From the NCBI RefSeq assembly GCF_900110915.1, contig NZ_FOFG01000002.1, positions 310,001 through 374,000 of the forward strand: a stretch of 64,000 nucleotides of DNA, read 5' to 3'. Position numbers and translations under genes: made by a program. Shown piece by piece: positions 8,488 through 38,782 of the stretch; the first letter of the stretch is position 1; every line of letters starts with the position of its first letter. The stretch comes from Faunimonas pinastri. GTDB taxonomy: Bacteria; Pseudomonadota; Alphaproteobacteria; Rhizobiales; Afifellaceae. The notes beneath the pieces were generated by a model. It was not told the origin of the DNA, did not search any database, and saw nothing but the letters and a program-made list of their open reading frames with translations.

Positions 8488-8690
8488 TGGCTGGAGGCCT
8501 GCATTCTTAAGAAACGAAGAAACGTATGATCCTTCTATACTATCCCTTGTTGTTCGTTGCACTGCCGAAGAAGCGAAACGTACAGAAAAGTTAACGGGTG
8601 CACGCTTTTCTCGGGCCGAGACGATTGCTGCGGTGCGAAAGCGTCCCGCAGGTGCTTGAATGCAGCGCTCGGGGTGCCTAGAGCATTCCC

Positions 8691-27152: not shown

Positions 27153-28262
27153 TCAGCTCTTCGGGTTCAGGTAGTCGTACTTGCCGTCGTGCCACTTGTA
27201 GAAGACGTAGCCCGGCAGCGCGACGTCGCCCTTGCTGTCGAACTTCACCGGGCCGATCACGGTTTCGGCCGTGTCGGTGTTCAGGGCATCGACCACCTTG
27301 TCGAAGTCCGTGGCGCCGGCCTTCTTCACCGCGTCGACCCACGCCTGGATCGCCGCATAGGTGTAGAGCGTGTAGCCCTCCGGCTCGATCTTCTTGGCGT
27401 GGAACTCGTCCACGACCGGCGCGGCGGCGGGGTTCTTGCGCGGATCGGGAGAGAAGGTCATCAGCGTGCCTTCGCCGGCCGGACCGGTGATCGCCCAGTA
27501 TTCGTCGGTCACGAGCGCGTCGCCGGAGACGATCACGACGTTCATGCCCTGCTCTTTCATCTGGCGGGCCATCAGGCCGGCCTCGGTGTAGTAGCCACCG
27601 ACATAGAGCACGCCGATGCCCGCCTGCTTCAGCTTGGAAACGAGAGCGGTGTAGTCCTTCTCGCCGGCCGTGTAGGATTCCACGACATCGGGCTTCTTGC
27701 CGGCCGCTTCCATCGCCGCCTGCGTCTGGTCGGCAAGCCCCTTACCGTAGGCGCTCTTGTCATTGATGATGGCGATCTTCTTGTCCTTGAACTCGGACGC
27801 GAGATAGCCACCCGCGACCTTGCCCTGCTGGTCGTCGCGACCGCAGACGCGGAAGACGCCCTTGCCGGCGCGCTCGTCGGTGAAGGTCGGGTTGGTGGAA
27901 GCCGGAGAGATCTGCACGATGTTTTCATCGGCATAGACCGAGGAAGCCGGGATGGACGAACCGGAGCAGAAATGCCCGGCGACCATCTTCACGCCCTTGC
28001 TGGCCATGTCGTTGGCAACGGCGACCGCCTGCTTGGGATCGCAGGCATCGTCGCCGACGACCAGCTGCAGCTTCTGCCCGAGCACGCCACCGGCCTTGTT
28101 GATGTCTTCGACCGCCTGCTGCGCGCCGTTCTTCATCTGGGCGCCGAAGGAGGCGTACTGACCGGTCATGGGCCCCACGGTCGAGACCAGAATGTCGGCC
28201 CAAGCGCTGCCAGCGGCCAGGGTGAAGGTCAGGGCGACGCCTGCCAGCAAAGCTTTCTTCAT
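27153..28262 (-). CDS. livK: Branched-chain amino-acid ABC transporter, binding protein
   Basis: Periplasmic solute-binding protein of 369 residues with a Sec signal peptide (MKKALLAGVALTFTLAAGSA, cleaved near AWA-DI). The mature chain begins VSTVGPMTGQYASFG and has the ligand-loop SPASTNPTFT and the conserved Cys pair (DDACDPKQ with GHFCSGSS) of LivK/LivJ type receptors. An AGGAG precedes the ATG. It lies downstream of the permease and ATPase genes but behind a terminator-like hairpin, so expression may differ from theirs. The exact amino acid is not predictable. Confidence 0.95.
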   Translation of the reverse strand: MKKALLAGVALTFTLAAGSAWADILVSTVGPMTGQYASFGAQMKNGAQQAVEDINKAGGVLGQKLQLVVGDDACDPKQAVAVANDMASKGVKMVAGHFCSGSSIPASSVYADENIVQISPASTNPTFTDERAGKGVFRVCGRDDQQGKVAGGYLASEFKDKKIAIINDKSAYGKGLADQTQAAMEAAGKKPDVVESYTAGEKDYTALVSKLKQAGIGVLYVGGYYTEAGLMARQMKEQGMNVVIVSGDALVTDEYWAITGPAGEGTLMTFSPDPRKNPAAAPVVDEFHAKKIEPEGYTLYTYAAIQAWVDAVKKAGATDFDKVVDALNTDTAETVIGPVKFDSKGDVALPGYVFYKWHDGKYDYLNPKS

Positions 28263-28785: not shown

Positions 28786-29522
<737 letters not shown>

Positions 29523-29526
<4 letters not shown>

Positions 29527-30464
29527 GCCTGCACCTCCGCTTCCAGAACGGCTTCCACCTGCTCCACCTCGGTATCCTCGACGCCGAGATAGGCGGCGAT
29601 GACACTGGGGTCGTTGCGCACTTCGAAGGCCGTTCCGTCGGAGATCTTCACCCCGTAATCCAGGACGACGATGTGGTCGGAAATTTCCATCACCACGCCC
29701 ATGTCATGCTCGATCAGCAGGATGGAGGTGCCGCATTCGCGGCGAATATAGTGCAGGAGATCGTTCAGCTCGGCGGATTCGCGCGGGTTGAGGCCCGCCG
29801 CCGGTTCGTCGAGACAAAGGAGATGCGGATCCGTGCACATGGCGCGGGCAATCTCCAGCCGGCGCTGGTCCCCGTAGGGAAGATCCGCGGCCGGATCGTC
29901 GGCGCGGTGAAGCAGGTTGACCTGGCGGAGCCAGCCGATCGCCTTTTCCATCGCGGCCTCGCGGGCGCGGCGATAGCCCGGCAGGTTGAAGATGCCGCCG
30001 ATGGTGAAGCCGGAGGCCACCATCAACCGGTTGTGCTGGGCGACCAGCAGGTTCTCCAGCGTCGTCATGCCGCCGAAGAGGCGGATATTCTGGAAGGTGC
30101 GCGCCACCTTGGCATGGTGCGAGATGCGGAAATCCGTCATCCGCTCCAGCAGGAACAGCGCCCCGTCGGCGGACGTGGCCGACTGCCGCCCTCCTCGCGT
30201 CAGCGCGGCGATGTCGTCCGCCTTCCCCGCCTTGCCGTGGCGCATGACGATGCGCCCCTCGGTCGGTTTGTAGAAGCCGGTGACGCAGTTGAAGACCGTC
30301 GTCTTGCCCGCGCCGTTCGGACCGATCAGCGCGGTGATCTCGCCGCGCCCGACGTTGAAGGAGAGGTCGTTCACGGCGACCAGCCCGCCGAAGCGCATCG
30401 TCAGATGCTCGACGGTGAGCACCGGGTCGCGCTCCCATACGGGATAGTGAGACGTATCGCTCAT
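29523..30464 (-). CDS. livG: Branched-chain amino-acid ABC transporter ATPase LivG
   Basis: Second ATPase of the importer, 313 residues from ATG 30464 ([13 protein letters not shown]). Walker A GPNGAGKTTVFNC, Q-loop ARTFQNIRLF, the LivG-type LPYGDQRRLEIARAM signature and Walker B LLCLDEPAAGLNP are present. It is longer than E. coli LivG because of an insertion (about 80-115, GGRQSATSADG) and an acidic tail, VEQVEAVLEAEVQA, both seen in rhizobial versions. It shares a base with the livM stop (TGATG). Confidence 0.96.
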
Positions 30465-31939
30465 CAATGCCCCTCGCCCTGCGCGACCATGTCCGCGCCG
30501 ATGCGGGTTTTTCGTTTGTAGATCGCCGTCGGCGAGCGGCTGGAAACCAACCCGCGCGGCTTCCACACCATGATCACCACCATGGCGAGGCCGAAGATCA
30601 GCATGCGGTACTGCGTCGGATCGAAGTCGGGGCCGAAGATCGCCTTGAGGAAGGTGAGGTTCCGCAGGAGTTCGATGCCGCCGATCATCACCACGGAGGC
30701 GATGACGACGCCGATCTGCGAGCCGAGGCCGCCGAGAACCACGATGGCGAGGATGATCGCCGATTCCAGGAAGGTGAAGCTTTCCGGCGAGATGAAGCCC
30801 TGCCGCGTCGCGAAGAACGAGCCGGCGAAGCCGCCGAACATCGCCCCGGTGGCGAAGGCCGTCAGCTTGGTGTTCGTCGTGTTGATGCCGAGCGAGCGGC
30901 AGGCGATCTCGTCCTCGCGCAGCGCTTCCCACGCCCGGCCGATCGGCAGGCGGCGCAGACGCAGCGTCACGAAGTTTGTGAGCAGCGCCAATACCAGGAT
31001 GATGTAGTACAGGAAGATGAAGCGCTGGATCGGGCTGTAGTGAATGCCCAGCAGATCGGCGACGCCGCCCGCCCCGCTCTTGAACTCGTAGCCGAACAGG
31101 GTCGGCTTCGGCACGCCGGAAATGCCGTTCGGGCCGCCGGTAAAATTCGACCAGTTCAGCAGGATCACGCGAATGATCTCGCCGAAGGCGAGCGTCACGA
31201 TGGCGAGATAGTCGCCGCGCAGCCGCAGCACGGGAAAGCCAAGGATCATGCCCCAGCAGGCGGCGAGGATGCCGGCGAGCGGCAGGCAGGTCCAGAAGCC
31301 GAGGCCCAGATATTTCGCCAGAAGCGCGAAGGAATAGGCGCCCACCGCGTAGAAGGCGACGTAGCCGAGATCGAGCAGGCCCGCGAGGCCGACCACGATG
31401 TTCAGCCCCCAACCCAGCATCACGTAGGTGAGGATCAGGATGGAGAGGTCGATGTACTGGCGGCTCTGCTGCGGCGCGCCCCAGATCATCAGGAAGGGAA
31501 AGGCAAGCGCCACGAGGAGAAGAACCGGCGCGATCGCCTTGCTGAAGCGCGCATAGGTTTCGCCCCGCGACGTGGTCGCCTTGGGGGCGCGAGCTTTCGG
31601 CGGGGCGGAACGCCGGCGCTTGTAGACGAAGAGGTTGAGCAGCAGGCGGCCGACGAAGACGATCGCCACCGCGATGACGAGGGCGCCCCAGCGCTGGGTG
31701 AGGGCAAGGCCCCCTGGCGCGATGTCGCTCCTGAGGCCGATGAAGAAGAAGCCGAGGGCGGCGGCGAGAGCGCCGGCCACCACCGCATCGACGAGGGATG
31801 CGGAAAGTTGGCTTTTCGCTCCCCCACGACGGGGGGATATGGCCGGCGGTTCCCCGGACAGGCCGGAGCGGAGGTTCTCCAGTTCGACCTGCTCGCCCGC
31901 TCCGTGATTGGAGGAGGCGCTGGCTTGCGGATCGGCCAT
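30464..31939 (-). CDS. livM: Branched-chain amino-acid ABC transporter permease LivM
   Basis: Permease of 491 residues. The conserved LivM core starts at about residue 165 ([20 protein letters not shown]) with the family's [19 protein letters not shown] and the EAA-like loop [18 protein letters not shown]. The N-terminus is unusually long: a polar segment of about 45 residues, then two extra membrane helices, similar to the long LivM form seen in Hyphomicrobiales. It starts one base after livH. Confidence 0.96.
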
Positions 31940-31940
31940 G

Positions 31941-32870
<930 letters not shown>

Positions 32871-32952
32871 TTAAACGTCCCCCTGCGCGGCAGCCGCGCC
32901 GCTTTTGCGCGTGTCGTCACGCTGCCGCGTTCAAGGAACGTTAGCAATGCTT

Positions 32953-32986
32953 TTGTGCGCGCACAATACTTGTGCACTGCACAAGT
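32953..32986. promoter_or_regulatory. Two tandem dyads, candidate operator array of the liv operon
   Basis: TTGTGCGCGCACAA (32953-32966) is a perfect palindrome. After one base comes a 19-bp dyad with arms ACTTGTGCA and TGCACAAGT around one C (32968-32986). Both contain the same TTGTGC...GCACAA half-sites, with centres about 17.5 bp apart. They sit 83-116 bp upstream of the livH ATG, and the other neighbour (33053-33841) only ends here. I do not recognise the regulator; GntR-family sites have a comparable TTGT...ACAA form. Confidence 0.65.
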
Positions 32987-33052
32987 GACGGTTGCATGGG
33001 GAGAGCCGCCTCGATAGCAGCCCGGCCGGATGCGATCCAGACCGGCTCCCAG

Positions 33053-33841
33053 CTATTCCGACTGGGTGAGAAAATCCATCACGGCCTTGTTGAAGGCTTC
33101 CGGCTGCTCGACGTTCAGAAGGTGCGCCGCCTGCAGCGTCCTGCTTTGCGAGCCCGGGATGCGCTGCAGCACCTGCTCGGCCATCTTGGCGGGCGTCACC
33201 GGATCGCGGTCGCCGATCAGCACCATGACCGGCGATTCCACCAGCCCGAGCTTGTCGCGCAGGTCCATGTCGCGAAGCGCCCCGGCGGCGTTGCAATAGC
33301 CCACGGGATCGTTGGCGGCGACCATGTCGTGGAGGCGGGCGACAATCTCCGGCTGCGCCTGCCGGAACTCAGGCGTGAACCACCGCTCCATGTTTGAGTC
33401 AGCTATCGGCTCCAGTCCTTCGTCGCGGATGGTCTGGATGCGCTCGTCCCAGTCTTCCTTCGGCGGCAGGAAGGGCGAGACGCTGGCCAGCACCAGCCGG
33501 GTGAACCTTCTGGGATGGTTCATGCCGAGCCAAAGTCCCGTCATGGCGCCCATCGAGATACCGACATAGGAAGCCTGGCTGATGCCGAGTGCGTCCATCA
33601 GGTCGAGCACGTCCGCACCCAGCCGCTCGATCGTGTAGTCGCCTTCCGGCGATTCCGACTCGCCGTGCCCCCGCTGGTCGTAGCGAATGACGCGGAAATG
33701 CGCGTCGGCGGACTGGAGCTGCGCGTTCCAGAGACGGAGGTCCGTGCCGAGGGAATTGGAGAAGATCAGGACGGGGCCATCCGCGCGGCCGCTTTCCTCA
33801 TAGCGGATCGCGATGCCGTCGCTGGTCTGAAACTTTGACAT
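33053..33841 (-). CDS. pcaD: 3-oxoadipate enol-lactonase type alpha/beta hydrolase
   Basis: Alpha/beta hydrolase of 262 residues from ATG 33841 (MSKFQTSDGI), with GGGAG nine bases upstream. The triad is Ser96 in VGISMGAMTG, Asp213 in IGDRDPVTP and His240 in AAHLLNVEQP. The pattern SNSLGTDLRLWNAQ and RYDQRGHGESE closely fits PcaD, which opens the enol-lactone of the beta-ketoadipate pathway. No other pca gene (pcaB, C, G, H) is near, so the assignment to that pathway is tentative; a general carboxylesterase is the alternative. Confidence 0.82.
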   Translation of the reverse strand: MSKFQTSDGIAIRYEESGRADGPVLIFSNSLGTDLRLWNAQLQSADAHFRVIRYDQRGHGESESPEGDYTIERLGADVLDLMDALGISQASYVGISMGAMTGLWLGMNHPRRFTRLVLASVSPFLPPKEDWDERIQTIRDEGLEPIADSNMERWFTPEFRQAQPEIVARLHDMVAANDPVGYCNAAGALRDMDLRDKLGLVESPVMVLIGDRDPVTPAKMAEQVLQRIPGSQSRTLQAAHLLNVEQPEAFNKAVMDFLTQSE

Positions 33842-33953
33842 GGATACTGCTCCCGGTGCTTTCCCAGAGGCGACCCCGACCGGGGCCTCCCCTATCCCAC
33901 GTTGCCCGCGCGATCCTTCTCTATACCAGCGGGAGCGCGTAAGGTTCCGCTCC

Positions 33954-34916
33954 ATGAGCGAGTTGCCCCTCCCCCGTTCGGTCGAAGAAACGCAGGCCTT
34001 GCTGGCGCGCGGCCACTATGTCGCCGACCGCGCGCTGGCGCTCGTGCTGTTCCTGAGCCTCATCATGGGGCGACCGCTTTTCCTTGAGGGAGAGGCCGGC
34101 GTCGGCAAGACGGAGATCGCCAAGGTGCTGGCCAGGGCGCTCGGGCGGCGGCTGATCCGGCTGCAATGCTACGAGGGCCTCGACATATCGAGCGCCGTCT
34201 ACGAGTGGAACTACGCCGCGCAGATGGTCGGTATCCGGCTGGCGGAAGCGACGGGCGAGCGGGATCGCGAGCGGCTTTCCGCCGATATCTTCTCCGAGCG
34301 CTTCCTGATCCGCCGCCCCATCCTGCAGGCGCTTGAGCCCGACATGGCGGGGCCGCCGATCCTGCTGATCGACGAACTCGACCGGGCGGACGAAGCCTTC
34401 GAGGCCTTTCTGCTGGAAGTTCTCTCCGAGGCGCAGGTGACGATCCCCGAGCTCGGCACGATCCGCGCCGAACGTGCGCCCATCGTGATCATCACCACCA
34501 ACCGCACGCGCGAGATCCACGACGCGCTGAAGCGGCGCTGCCTCTATCACTGGGTCGATTATCCCGACGCCGGGCGCGAACGGGAAATCGTGGAGGCGCG
34601 CCTGCCCGGCATCGGCGAGCGGCTTGCGGCGGAGGCGGTCGGCTTCGTGCAGCGATTGCGGCGCGAGGATCTTTTCAAGAAGCCGGGCGTGGCGGAAACG
34701 CTGGACTGGGCGACGGCCCTCGGCGCGCTCGGCAGTTCCGCCGTCGATCCGGCCTCGGTGGCCGACACGCTGGGCGTCCTCCTGAAATACCAGGACGACA
34801 TCGCCGCGATGACGCCGGAGCGCATCGCCGCGCTGCTGGCGGAAGAGCCCTCTTCGAACGAGGCAGCCGCAAACGAGACAGCCACCACCGAGATAGCCAC
34901 CACCGAGACAGCATGA
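33954..34916 (+). CDS. MoxR-family AAA+ ATPase (CoxD-like)
   Basis: AAA+ ATPase of 320 residues from ATG 33954 (MSELPLPRSV). Walker A is GEAGVGKT (46-53) and Walker B ILLIDELDRA (136-145); sensor 1 is IITTNRTREIHDAL. MoxR ATPases act with VWA proteins as metal or cofactor insertion chaperones, and in Cox/Xdh clusters (CoxD) they help mature the Mo-Cu or Mo active site. The tail carries a 15-bp tandem repeat (separate entry). The stop overlaps the VWA gene as ATGA. In-frame sequence further upstream to 33840 lacks family similarity and would run over the pcaD-like start. Confidence 0.93.
   Translation: MSELPLPRSVEETQALLARGHYVADRALALVLFLSLIMGRPLFLEGEAGVGKTEIAKVLARALGRRLIRLQCYEGLDISSAVYEWNYAAQMVGIRLAEATGERDRERLSADIFSERFLIRRPILQALEPDMAGPPILLIDELDRADEAFEAFLLEVLSEAQVTIPELGTIRAERAPIVIITTNRTREIHDALKRRCLYHWVDYPDAGREREIVEARLPGIGERLAAEAVGFVQRLRREDLFKKPGVAETLDWATALGALGSSAVDPASVADTLGVLLKYQDDIAAMTPERIAALLAEEPSSNEAAANETATTEIATTETA
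34875..34912 (+). repeat. 15-bp tandem repeat in the MoxR C-terminus
   Basis: GAGACAGCCACCACC (34875), GAGATAGCCACCACC (34890) and a partial GAGACAGC (34905) encode ETATT-EIATT-ETA at the very end of the MoxR protein. Units keep the frame, so slippage would only change tail length by five residues. Confidence 0.85.
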
Positions 34917-36118
34917 GCGGAGCCGCCGACATCGTGGGCAGGCTCATCGACTTTGCGGGCCTGTTGCGAAAGGCGGCCATGACGGTCGGACCCGCAAGCG
35001 TCCTCGACGCGCTCCGCGCGCTGGAGATCGCTGGTCTGGACTCGCGGGAGGATGTGTTCTCGACGCTTCAGGCCGCCATGGTGACCCGGCGCGAGGACCG
35101 CGCCGTCTTTGCCGCCGCATTCGATCTTTTCTGGCGGGAAAACCCGGTTTCTGGCGGCTCACCGCGAACCCATCGGGAAAACGGTGCCGAGGCGATCTCC
35201 CGCCCTGCCGAGCAGCGCGTGCGGGAGGCGCTGGCCGCGCTCAGCGGCGGTGCGGAAGACGAGTCGCCCTTCGAACGACTGGAGGCACGGCGCACCGCCG
35301 CCACCGGGGAGCACCTGAAGCATCGCGATTTCGCCGGCATGAGCGCGGCCGAACTGCGGGAAGCCCGGCGCGCGATCGAGCGGCTGGCCCTGCCCCACGA
35401 TGAAATCCGGCTGCGACGCCTCAGGCCGTCGCCGCGCGGCAGGATAGATCCGCGACAGACCTTCCGTGCCGCGCTGCGCACCGGCGGCGATTTCGTCGCC
35501 CCCTCCTTCCGCGCGCCGGATCGCACTGCTCCTACGATCGTGGCGCTTTGCGATATCTCCGGCTCGATGGGAGCCTATTCCCGCGTGCTGCTCTTCTTCC
35601 TCCATGCGATCGCCGCGCGTCGCCCGGTGCAGAGCTTCGTGTTCGGCACGCGGCTCACCAACATCACGCGCTCGCTTCGCACCCGCGATCCGGACGAGGC
35701 GCTGGCCGCCTGTGCGGCCGAAGTGCCGGACTGGTCCGGCGGAACGCGGATCGCCCCGGCGCTGCACGCCTTCAATCGAGACTGGTCGCGGCGCGTGCTG
35801 GGCCAGAAGGCGACCCTGCTGCTGATCACCGACGGGCTGGAGCGGCAGGTTGATGGGAACGAACGCGGGCCGGACCTTGCCCGCGAGATGGACCGCCTCC
35901 ATCGTTCCTGCCGGCGGCTGATCTGGCTGAACCCGCTGCTTCGCTTCGACGCATTTCAAGCCAGGGCGTCTGGCATCCGCGCGATGCTTCCCCATGTAGA
36001 CGAATTCAGGCCGGCGCATTCGCTCGCTTCCGTCGAGCAGCTTGTGGCGGCACTTTCTTCCGGCAAAGACGCGGCCCGTGCGGACCCGCGGAATTATCTC
36101 CGGGCTTCGCGAGGATGA
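34913..36118 (+). CDS. VWA-domain protein (CoxE-like)
   Basis: 401-residue partner of the MoxR ATPase. The C-terminal half is a von Willebrand A domain with an intact MIDAS DISGSMG (214-220) and later TLLLITDGLE; the N-terminal half is a helical, charged region typical of CoxE. MoxR and CoxE together are thought to remodel apo-molybdenum hydroxylases during cofactor activation. It is coupled by four-base overlaps to both neighbours. Confidence 0.92.
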   Translation: MSGAADIVGRLIDFAGLLRKAAMTVGPASVLDALRALEIAGLDSREDVFSTLQAAMVTRREDRAVFAAAFDLFWRENPVSGGSPRTHRENGAEAISRPAEQRVREALAALSGGAEDESPFERLEARRTAATGEHLKHRDFAGMSAAELREARRAIERLALPHDEIRLRRLRPSPRGRIDPRQTFRAALRTGGDFVAPSFRAPDRTAPTIVALCDISGSMGAYSRVLLFFLHAIAARRPVQSFVFGTRLTNITRSLRTRDPDEALAACAAEVPDWSGGTRIAPALHAFNRDWSRRVLGQKATLLLITDGLERQVDGNERGPDLAREMDRLHRSCRRLIWLNPLLRFDAFQARASGIRAMLPHVDEFRPAHSLASVEQLVAALSSGKDAARADPRNYLRASRG

Positions 36119-36450
36119 CGATGAACGACGCGGTTTTGGCGGGCGATGTGCTGGAATATGCCGAGCGCTGGCTTGGCGAGGGCCGCGAGGTGGCGCTTGC
36201 CACGGTGGTGGAAACGTGGGGTTCGGCCCCCCGTCCCGTCGGCAGCCATCTGGTGGTGGATGCGGAAGGAAATTTCGAGGGATCCGTTTCCGGCGGCTGC
36301 GTCGAGGGCGCGGTGGTCGGCGAGGCTCTCGACGTGATCGGTTCCGGCGCCCCCCGGATGCTCGAATTCGGCGTGGCGGACGAGACGGCGTGGCGAGTGG
36401 GCCTTTCGTGCGGCGGCCGCATCCGGGTCTTTGTCGAGAAGATCGCCTGA
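36115..36450 (+). CDS. XdhC-type N-terminal domain protein
   Basis: 111-residue protein resembling the first half of XdhC/CoxI: VALATVVETWGSAPRPVGSH, then SVSGGCVEGAVVG and the closing LSCGGRIRVFVEKI. XdhC binds molybdenum cofactor and delivers it, sulfurated, to xanthine dehydrogenase-type enzymes. The second half is encoded separately by the next gene. The start may be ATG 36115 or 36121; the first overlaps the VWA stop. Confidence 0.9.
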   Translation: MTMNDAVLAGDVLEYAERWLGEGREVALATVVETWGSAPRPVGSHLVVDAEGNFEGSVSGGCVEGAVVGEALDVIGSGAPRMLEFGVADETAWRVGLSCGGRIRVFVEKIA

Positions 36451-37160
36451 TGGATCGAAATCTCCTGCACGAACTCAATCGCGCCCGTGCGGCGCGCCGG
36501 GCCGCCGCGGTCGTCACAGACACGCAGACGGGCGAGCAGCGTCTCGTGCCCGAGCGCGATGCGAGCGGCGATCCTCTGTCGGACGAGTTGCAGCGCCGCT
36601 TCCGCTCCGGCCGCTCCGGCCTTCTGGAGGATGGCCGCACCTTTCTCACCGTTTCCGTGCCTCCGCCCCGGCTGGTGGTGATCGGCGCGGTTCATATCAG
36701 CCAGGCGCTGGTGCCGCTCGCGGCCGTCGCCGGGCTGGACGTCAGCATAATCGATCCGCGAACCGCCTTCTCCACGCCCGAGCGATTCCCGGGCGTCGAG
36801 CTCATCGCGGACTGGCCGGAGGAAGCGCTGCGAGAGCACCCGCTCGACGATTACACCGCACTGGCGGCGCTGACGCACGATCCGAAGATCGACGACGTGC
36901 CGCTTGCCGAGGCGCTGAAGGCTGGCTGCTTCTATGTCGGCGCGCTGGGCAGCAGGAAGACGCACGCGAAACGCGTCGAGCGACTGGGCGCGATGGGCTT
37001 GGCGCCGGAGCAGATCGCCCGCATCCATGCGCCGATCGGCCTCGACATCGGGGCCCAGTCTCCTGCCGAAATCGCGGTTGCCGTGCTGGCGCAGGTGATT
37101 CAAACGCTGCGGAGGGGACGCACCGTCGCCGAACCGGCCGAAGCGAAGACCGCCGCTTGA
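36450..37160 (+). CDS. XdhC-type Rossmann domain protein
   Basis: 236 residues. The Rossmann part begins RLVVIGAVHISQALVPLAA (about 74-92) and continues with SIIDPRTAFSTPERFPG, the YVGALGSRKTHAKR segment and GLDIGAQSPAEIAVAVLAQV, all characteristic of XdhC/CoxF family C-terminal domains. It shares a base with the preceding gene's stop (TGATG). The two split XdhC proteins probably act together as the cofactor carrier. Confidence 0.9.
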   Translation: MDRNLLHELNRARAARRAAAVVTDTQTGEQRLVPERDASGDPLSDELQRRFRSGRSGLLEDGRTFLTVSVPPPRLVVIGAVHISQALVPLAAVAGLDVSIIDPRTAFSTPERFPGVELIADWPEEALREHPLDDYTALAALTHDPKIDDVPLAEALKAGCFYVGALGSRKTHAKRVERLGAMGLAPEQIARIHAPIGLDIGAQSPAEIAVAVLAQVIQTLRRGRTVAEPAEAKTAA

Positions 37161-38782
37161 AGTTCGGCCTCATCTCCGTCGCGCAGGCAGATGGCGCGAT
37201 CCTCGCGCATTCGATCCGCCTCGCCTCCGGCGTCCTGAGGAAAGGCACCCGGCTGGGCCGCGAGGCCCTGCGCCGCCTCGCGGAAGAGGGCCATACCGAG
37301 ATCGTCGTCGCCCGCCTCGCCCCCACCGACATTTCCGAAGACGAAGCGGCAGCCGCCATCGCGAACCTGCTCGTGGGGGCCAACGTGCGCCGCGACCTCG
37401 CCGGAACGGGCCGCTGCAACCTCTTCGCCGAGCGCGCGGGCGTCTTCCAGGTCGACCGTGCCGCTATCGATGCGCTGAACCGGCTCGATCCCGGCATCAC
37501 GGTGGCGACCCTGCCGGAGTTCGCTGCGGTCGAAGCCGGCCGCATGATCGCCACCGTGAAGATCATCCCCTTCGCCGTACCGGCAGCCGCCCTCGTCAGT
37601 GCGCGGGGCACTCTGGACGACGGCGTGAAGCTGGCGGTGGCGCCGTTCCAGCCTCTCCGCGTCGGACTGGCCGCGACGATACTGCCCGGCCTCAAGCCCA
37701 CCGTCATGGAGAAGACGCGGAGAGCGCTGGAGGACCGGCTCCGGCCGGCCGGCGCGACGCTGACACGCGAGATCCGCGTGCCGCACGAGCCGGCGGCGCT
37801 GGCCTCCGCGCTGCGGAGCCTGCGGGAAGACGGCGCGGATCTTCTCATCGCCTTCGGCGCATCCGCCATCACAGACCAGGCCGACGTCATTCCCGATGCG
37901 ATCGGGCGAGCGGGCGGCAGCGTCCGGCATTTCGGCATGCCGGTGGATCCCGGCAATCTGCTGCTGGTCGGCGACCTCGCCGGCGCTGTCGTGCTCGGCG
38001 CGCCCGGTTGCGCCCGCAGCCCGCGCGAGAACGGTTTCGACTGGGTTCTCAATCGCCTGCTTGCCGGTATTCCCGTTACGTCTCACGATCTGACCGGCAT
38101 GGGGGTCGGAGGGCTGTTGATGGATATCGTGTCGCGACCGCAGCCGCGCGAGGGCGGACACGCTCCCTCCGGCAAGACAGCCATCGTCATTCTCGCGGCC
38201 GGGCAGGCCCGGCGGATGGGCGGCCCCAACAAGCTGCTCGCGACCTTCCAGGGCGTGCCTCTGGTCCGCCGCATCGCCGAGGCGGCGCGGCACTCGTCCG
38301 GCCACCCGGTATTCGTGGTGACGGGCCACATGGAGGCGGAGATCCGTGCGACGCTTGCCGGCCTGGACGTGCAGTTCGCGCATAATCCGGACTATGCCGA
38401 GGGGCTCGGGACCTCGGTGCGGACCGGCATCGCGGCCCTGCCGGAGGATTGCGACGGCGCGCTCGTCACCCTTGCCGACATGCCGGGCGTCACGACCGAA
38501 CTAATCGACAGGCTGCTTGCCGCTTTCGGCGAGGCGGACGGGCCGGCGATCGTGCTGCCCACCGTGGACGGGAAACGCGGCAACCCCGTGCTCTGGTCGT
38601 CGCATTTCTTCGGCGAGTTGCGACGGCTCACCGGGGACACCGGCGCCCGGCATCTCCTGGCCGAGCACGGCGAGAGCATCGTCCGCATAGAGGTCGGCGA
38701 AGCGGCGGCCATCGACGTCGATACGCCGGATGCGCTGCACGCAGCCGGCGGCACCCTGCCCGAAGCGGCGGGCCAGGCCTAA
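37157..38782 (+). CDS. Molybdopterin-binding / MocA-type nucleotidyltransferase fusion
   Basis: 541 residues in two parts. Residues 1-330 have a MoaB/MogA-like molybdopterin-binding fold with GAPGCARSP (281-289). Residues 340-541 are a MobA-like nucleotidyltransferase opening [19 protein letters not shown] and containing LVTLADMPG. The second domain would make the dinucleotide form of the cofactor; CTP-using MocA (for the Xdh/Cox family) is likelier than GTP-using MobA given the neighbours. The start is TTG 37157, overlapping the XdhC stop as TTGA. The gene ends tail to tail with radC, the stop codons overlapping. Confidence 0.9.

Follow-up and report, generated by a model that had tools for sequence, protein, structure and literature searches.

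PhaR is a regulator that senses stored PHB (bioplastic). In Sinorhizobium meliloti, according to the accessible portion of the published work (PMC12542648), the PhaR consensus reads WNWD2NYGCRNYGCRNH2WNW, and the phaP1 promoter carries TTATTGTGCACTGCACAAATT, where His6-PhaR binds. Shifts were abolished when the phaP1 palindromes were excluded or mutated, and either copy of the box sufficed for binding in vitro (PMC12542648). In Bradyrhizobium diazoefficiens, for which the source (PMC10888616) was likewise accessible in part, the PhaR box is given as GCN3GC. Branched-chain amino acid (BCAA) metabolism is a known PhaR theme, since the promoter of blr6331 (bkdA1) is among those verified by EMSA in B. 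diazoefficiens and genes of valine catabolism are raised in the mutant (PMC10888616).

The locus described here, a pair of inverted repeats upstream of livH, resembles both systems. With S. meliloti phaP1 it shares a 15-base core and an arrangement of two boxes flanking the -35 element (the phaP1 centres lie 18 bp apart by the coordinates printed in the accessible text; PMC12542648). Unlike phaP1, where both boxes are N3-spaced and the target is a phasin, the putative second box at livH is N2-spaced and the target would be a BCAA importer. With the B. diazoefficiens PhaR regulon it shares a GCN3GC box and a link to BCAA metabolism; unlike the livH case, no BCAA transporter was found among the direct targets in the accessible part of that paper (PMC10888616). 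The features of the locus, numbered within the window (the whole analysed stretch of 64,000 nucleotides), are given below with their support.

32968..32986, no strand assigned: dyad 2, predicted distal PhaR box, with core TTGTGCACTGCACAA at 32970-32984 (15/15 identity with the phaP1 site; PWM)
32953..32966, no strand assigned: dyad 1, putative proximal PhaR-like box, one central base short (TGC-N2-GCA), overlapping the predicted -35 (register; PWM)
32961..32966, minus strand: predicted -35 hexamer TTGTGC of the livH promoter (TTGTGC in 9/10 family livH upstreams)
32938..32943, minus strand: predicted -10 hexamer TAACGT (separated from the -35 by 17 bp and following a conserved TTGC)
31941..32870, minus strand: livH, branched-chain amino acid permease (PF02653)
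30464..31939, minus strand: livM, branched-chain amino acid permease (PF02653 and DUF3382)
29523..30464, minus strand: livG, ATPase (PF00005 and PF12399; start 30464 taken from the reading frame, Pfam-scanned piece 29523-30437)
28786..29526, minus strand: livF, ATPase (PF00005; liv name from context)
27153..28262, minus strand: livK-type periplasmic binding protein (PF13458)
33053..33838, minus strand: upstream alpha/beta hydrolase gene, ending before the dyads (PF00561; start provisional)

By Pfam, livH is followed in order by livM, livG, livF and the livK-type gene. The dyad pair sits in the 182-bp gap between the stop of the hydrolase gene (33053) and the start of livH (32870), both on the minus strand, and lies 83-116 bp upstream of that start. 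Because the dyads fall between the stop of the upstream gene and livH, the earlier proposal that they serve only the livH operon fits the gene layout.

A sequence-only reading of the window had reported two dyads with shared half-sites at this place, and direct reading of the sequence bore this out. Dyad 1 (TTGTGCGCGCACAA, 32953-32966) is perfect, with 7-bp arms and no spacer base; dyad 2 (ACTTGTGCACTGCACAAGT, 32968-32986) has 9-bp arms around a 1-base centre. The half-sites TTGTGC/GCACAA are common to both, and the centres, at 32959.5 and 32977, are 17.5 bp apart. Singly, neither dyad is surprising, because the counts in the window match the means of 40 dinucleotide shuffles: 20 perfect dyads when arms ≥7 bp and a loop of 0-1 are required (shuffle mean 20.3), and a single one when arms ≥9 bp are required (shuffle mean 1.7). 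The adjacency of dyads 1 and 2, unlike each dyad singly, is beyond the chance level. The window contains a dyad with arms ≥9 bp no more than 5 bp away from another of the class, a configuration seen in 0/40 shuffles in a test that did not require shared half-sites. The suggestion that the dyads stand nearly two helical turns apart, on one face of the DNA, did not survive the arithmetic: at 10.5 bp per turn, 17.5 bp amounts to 1.67 turns, which sets the centres some 120 degrees away from a shared face, and same-face phasing was rejected.

A literature search with the 15-base core of dyad 2 led to the PhaR/AniA paper on S. meliloti, in whose accessible part (PMC12542648) the same 15 bases, 15/15 identical to TTGTGCACTGCACAA, form the EMSA-tested phaP1 site bound by PhaR/AniA. 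Dyad 2 has the PhaR-box core YGCRNYGCR (TGC-N3-GCA), while its flanks differ from the W positions of the S. meliloti consensus at three places. A PWM was built from 16 S. meliloti sites of efficiently bound promoters, as given in that part of the paper. Dyad 2 scores 20.2, the top of the window (next best 12.4), compared with a best of 18.8 and a mean of 12.2 in shuffled windows (n=40); it falls inside the training-site range of 18.0-29.5, the limits of which are self-scores of the 16 training sites. Elsewhere in the window, at 8552-8643, two weak PhaR-like matches (12.4 and 9.7) lie 71 bp apart inside an ORF and are probably due to chance.

The present genome encodes a phaR with both PhaR Pfam domains, divergent from a thiolase gene and a short-chain dehydrogenase gene, which were read as phaA and phaB. 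A phaC was also found, so the genome holds both PhaR and genes for PHB synthesis, and phaR is present in 11/11 family genomes. No phasin was detected in the present genome with PF09361, TIGR01841 or an alignment of the relatives' phasins, the last run without a positive control. The relatives carry phasins (PF09361) with PhaR-type boxes; the present genome carries PhaR, PhaC and PhaA/PhaB-like genes.

The strict N3 motif TKBTGCRNYGCAVMA was found at 8 sites in the own genome against 1 in the reversed control, and at 109 against 14 in the 11 family genomes, own included. The pattern drew on PhaR half-sites already known and on what a looser pattern had matched in the own genome; because it was written after that looser search, the own-genome count is not blind, and the ten other genomes provide the cleaner test. 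The looser pattern itself (TTGTGCRNYGCACAA, at most two mismatches) gave 17 sites against 13 in the control in the own genome and is too loose for enrichment. Family site loci were fetched at 55 places, and at 12 of these the same motif stands beside a gene identified through Pfam as belonging to PHB (8 phasins, 2 PHB depolymerases, 1 Esterase_PHB and 1 PhaC), some of the 12 being orthologues from one genus. The 12 loci were hand-picked by ORF reading and confirmed by Pfam in 12/12 cases; the number is a floor, because the Pfam scan covered those 12 only and left out the other 43.

Besides livH, strict sites of the own genome lie near ppdK and near genes for a Rieske protein, an HlyIII-type protein, a DUF1127 protein, DGOK and an inositol-monophosphatase-family protein. 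One of the eight (L037) falls within an ORF that looks, by reading, like a mechanosensitive-channel gene, and is probably due to chance. The ppdK promoter is bound by PhaR in S. meliloti too, according to the accessible text (PMC12542648). When own-genome and PHA proteins were used as queries against the 55 family loci, only PhaB-like and PhaC-like matches were returned; the own-genome targets were thus not met again, and within those sites targets beyond the PHB genes seem to turn over. Other paired PhaR-like boxes of the own genome were seen 31 bp apart near DGOK and a sugar-binding protein (L134, G000:C36), 19 bp apart near the inositol-monophosphatase-family gene (L135, G000:C21) and 43 bp apart near the Rieske protein gene (L137, G000:C28).

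Across 62 loci, box pairs within 120 bp are spaced by 18-20 bp in 9/22 cases and by 29-31 bp in 6/22. The eight phasin promoters are not independent, because several are orthologues from one genus. In five of them (L183, L194, L201, L210 and L221) a distal box is followed after 9 nt by a proximal TGC-N3-GCA, with centres 18 bp apart; one (L216) has a 10-nt gap and centres 19 bp apart, and in two (L187 and L225) the boxes lie 29-30 bp apart, not 18. A TATA-like hexamer follows 12 nt beyond the proximal box in six phasin promoters (13 nt in L183); these -10 hexamers were chosen by eye, and a script taking the first TA hexamer gives nearer candidates in L183 and L210. The livH promoter has the same register, namely distal box, 9 nt, TGC-N2-GCA, 12 nt and TAACGT. 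It differs from the six phasin promoters of this layout in two respects: their proximal box is N3 in all six, and their -10 is TATA-like. The register (two boxes, a 9-10 nt gap and 12-13 nt to a TATA-like hexamer; 6/8 phasin promoters) may provide a template with which the PhaR regulons of related bacteria can be interpreted.

The dyads lie at a predicted sigma-70 promoter with a conserved TTGTGC-17-TAACGT core. Upstream of livH, TTGnnn-N13-TTGCTA occurs in 10/10 family genomes that yielded a livH (G005 did not); the first hexamer is TTGTGC in nine of these, own included, and TTGTAT in the tenth. Since TTGTGC is kept without the palindrome in 8/9 other family livH promoters, the livH-strand half-site of dyad 1 can be equated with the -35 hexamer. 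Counted from the predicted start of the livH transcript, at about 32931, the centres of dyads 2 and 1 fall near -46 and -28.5, respectively. A strict E. coli-type sigma-70 promoter scan found 0 promoters, despite the conserved core. In a wider sample of 105 unique livH upstreams, 28 contained TTGnnn-N12-14-TTGCTA, most of them alphaproteobacterial, against an average of 0.25 over 20 mononucleotide shuffles.

On these grounds we consider it probable, with good confidence, that the dyads are a PhaR operator of the liv promoter. The reading is based on the identity with a tested site, the presence of phaR and PHB genes, the enrichment of the motif in the clade with its adjacency to PHB genes, and the promoter register; from these we infer PhaR binding, repression rather than activation, and a response to PHB. 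The sequence-only reading had offered no name for the regulator; the identity of dyad 2, the phaR gene of the genome and the clade motif allow PhaR to be proposed. Its broader idea, that the livH promoter carries a paired operator on which a dimeric regulator acts, remains the best reading of the sequence. Its treatment of the two as equivalent sites fared less well: dyad 2 has the PhaR spacing N3, dyad 1 has N2, and half of dyad 1 is the predicted -35. Dyad 1 alone lacks the core YGCRNYGCR (TGC-N3-GCA) because of this spacing. Its score with the canonical PWM is negative as found and becomes 18.7-18.8, within the training-site range, when one central base is added in silico. N2-spaced boxes as a class are not enriched in the family genomes (16 against 23 in the control), so dyad 1, which occupies the place of the proximal box one base short, is probably a weakened PhaR box and was not filed as a PhaR box alone. 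As a PhaR box in its own right it was rejected on spacing, by the N2, the negative PWM score and the lack of enrichment. The dyad 1 sequence had no match in the literature searched.

Several other explanations of the repeats were weighed. A hairpin function for them, for instance in terminating transcription of the hydrolase gene upstream, is extremely unlikely. The minus strand does fold into a hairpin spanning both dyads (z -2.33 for a 131-nt stretch, with 4/200 shuffles folding at least as well), but there is no T-run and the repeats overlap the conserved promoter core; an intrinsic terminator, defined as a GC-rich hairpin with a T-run, was rejected, with 0 such sites in 32860-33120. A different dimeric regulator, specific to liv or BCAA and treating the two dyads as equivalent sites, is also very unlikely. 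In its favour, dyad 1 is perfectly palindromic, has its half-sites in common with dyad 2 and has a spacing that does not fit PhaR; against it, the genome holds 2 matches to TTGTGCNNGCACAA at up to one mismatch, where the reversed control gives 8, and dyad 2 matches both the tested PhaR site and the clade motif. A more serious contender, to which we give a substantial though less than even chance, is that dyad 2 alone is the PhaR operator, dyad 1 being the conserved -35 hexamer joined to a chance GCACAA. It overlaps the preferred explanation and differs from it on dyad 1 only. The persistence of the -35 without the dyad in the other family genomes, the chance-level number of perfect 14-bp dyads in the window and the lack of enrichment of the N2 class speak for it. 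Conversely, the distance from GCACAA to the -10 is that of most phasin promoters, the spacing of 9 nt from the distal box matches as well, GCACAA stands at that place in 1/10 family livH promoters, namely in the present genome, which is also the one with dyad 2, and the adjacency of the dyads was absent from 40 shuffles.

Under the PhaR-operator reading, a PhaR oligomer would bind dyad 2, the canonical box, over a 21-bp site directly next to the -35 hexamer, and would contact dyad 1 more weakly; since dyad 1 contains the -35, PhaR there would cover it. Bound PhaR would most likely block RNA polymerase, so that livHMGFK is repressed, and when PHB accumulates, granules would sequester PhaR and BCAA import would rise. 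Within this reading we favour repression, a direction we infer with somewhat better than even confidence. The course we think likeliest, repression that is lifted when PHB sequesters PhaR, is suggested by the preponderance of repressed genes among those bearing the motif in S. meliloti: in the accessible text, the motif is enriched among the repressed genes of module 1 and found at only seven activated genes (PMC12542648). The opposite direction, in which PhaR on dyad 2 activates the liv operon from about -46 and loss of PhaR lowers BCAA import, is conceivable because PhaR activates bkd and many transporter proteins in S. meliloti (PMC12542648) and the phaR mutant of B. diazoefficiens showed lower expression of 107/121 affected ABC-transporter genes (PMC10888616), as far as the accessible parts of both papers go. 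It is nevertheless unlikely, given the predominance of repressed genes in module 1 and the position of the dyads, with dyad 1 overlapping the predicted -35 and dyad 2 abutting it, as do the boxes at phasin promoters.

A further, tentative idea, which we hold rather unlikely, is that the demands of promoter and operator conflict at livH, the conserved 17-bp -35/-10 spacer with its TTGTGC -35 keeping the proximal PhaR box one base short. livH would then be a weak, graded PhaR target, and BCAA import would be tuned by the PHB load rather than switched as are the phasins. With its proximal box one base short, the locus could serve as a natural experiment on the link between spacing and PhaR affinity.

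The sequence-only reading had staked the site on conservation upstream of orthologous livH genes. From 110 livH upstreams of 300 bp each, 105 unique ones were left after removal of 2 that were too short and 3 duplicates. Only the present one scores at least 18, followed by 15.4 and 15.2, so 0/104 others score like it and a conserved livH-specific operator was rejected. The PhaR-type box at livH looks lineage-specific in this sample, in which the relatives include no second genome of the same genus. The site itself is not thereby refuted, since PhaR-type boxes of this kind occur clade-wide and livH seems to have acquired one in the present genome.

If this reading is correct, the BCAA importer would be a new target of a known regulator. 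BCAA breakdown is already known to be under PhaR in two rhizobia (bkd in S. meliloti, bkdA1 and a valine operon in B. diazoefficiens), and no PhaR box on a BCAA importer or link between PhaR and livH was found in the literature searched, which was covered in part. PhaR would thereby be extended from BCAA breakdown to import, and an orphan operator would gain a named regulator. Through PhaR at the livH promoter, amino-acid uptake in this bacterium may be linked to its store of carbon, and uptake of BCAA, an acetyl-CoA source, is predicted to be coupled to the PHB store.

Beyond the hydrolase gene, at 33840-38782 of the window, lies a set of ORFs that read like MoxR-type ATPase, CoxE/VWA, XdhC-like and MobA-like proteins. 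By these names, which come from reading only, the set resembles a molybdenum hydroxylase accessory cluster.
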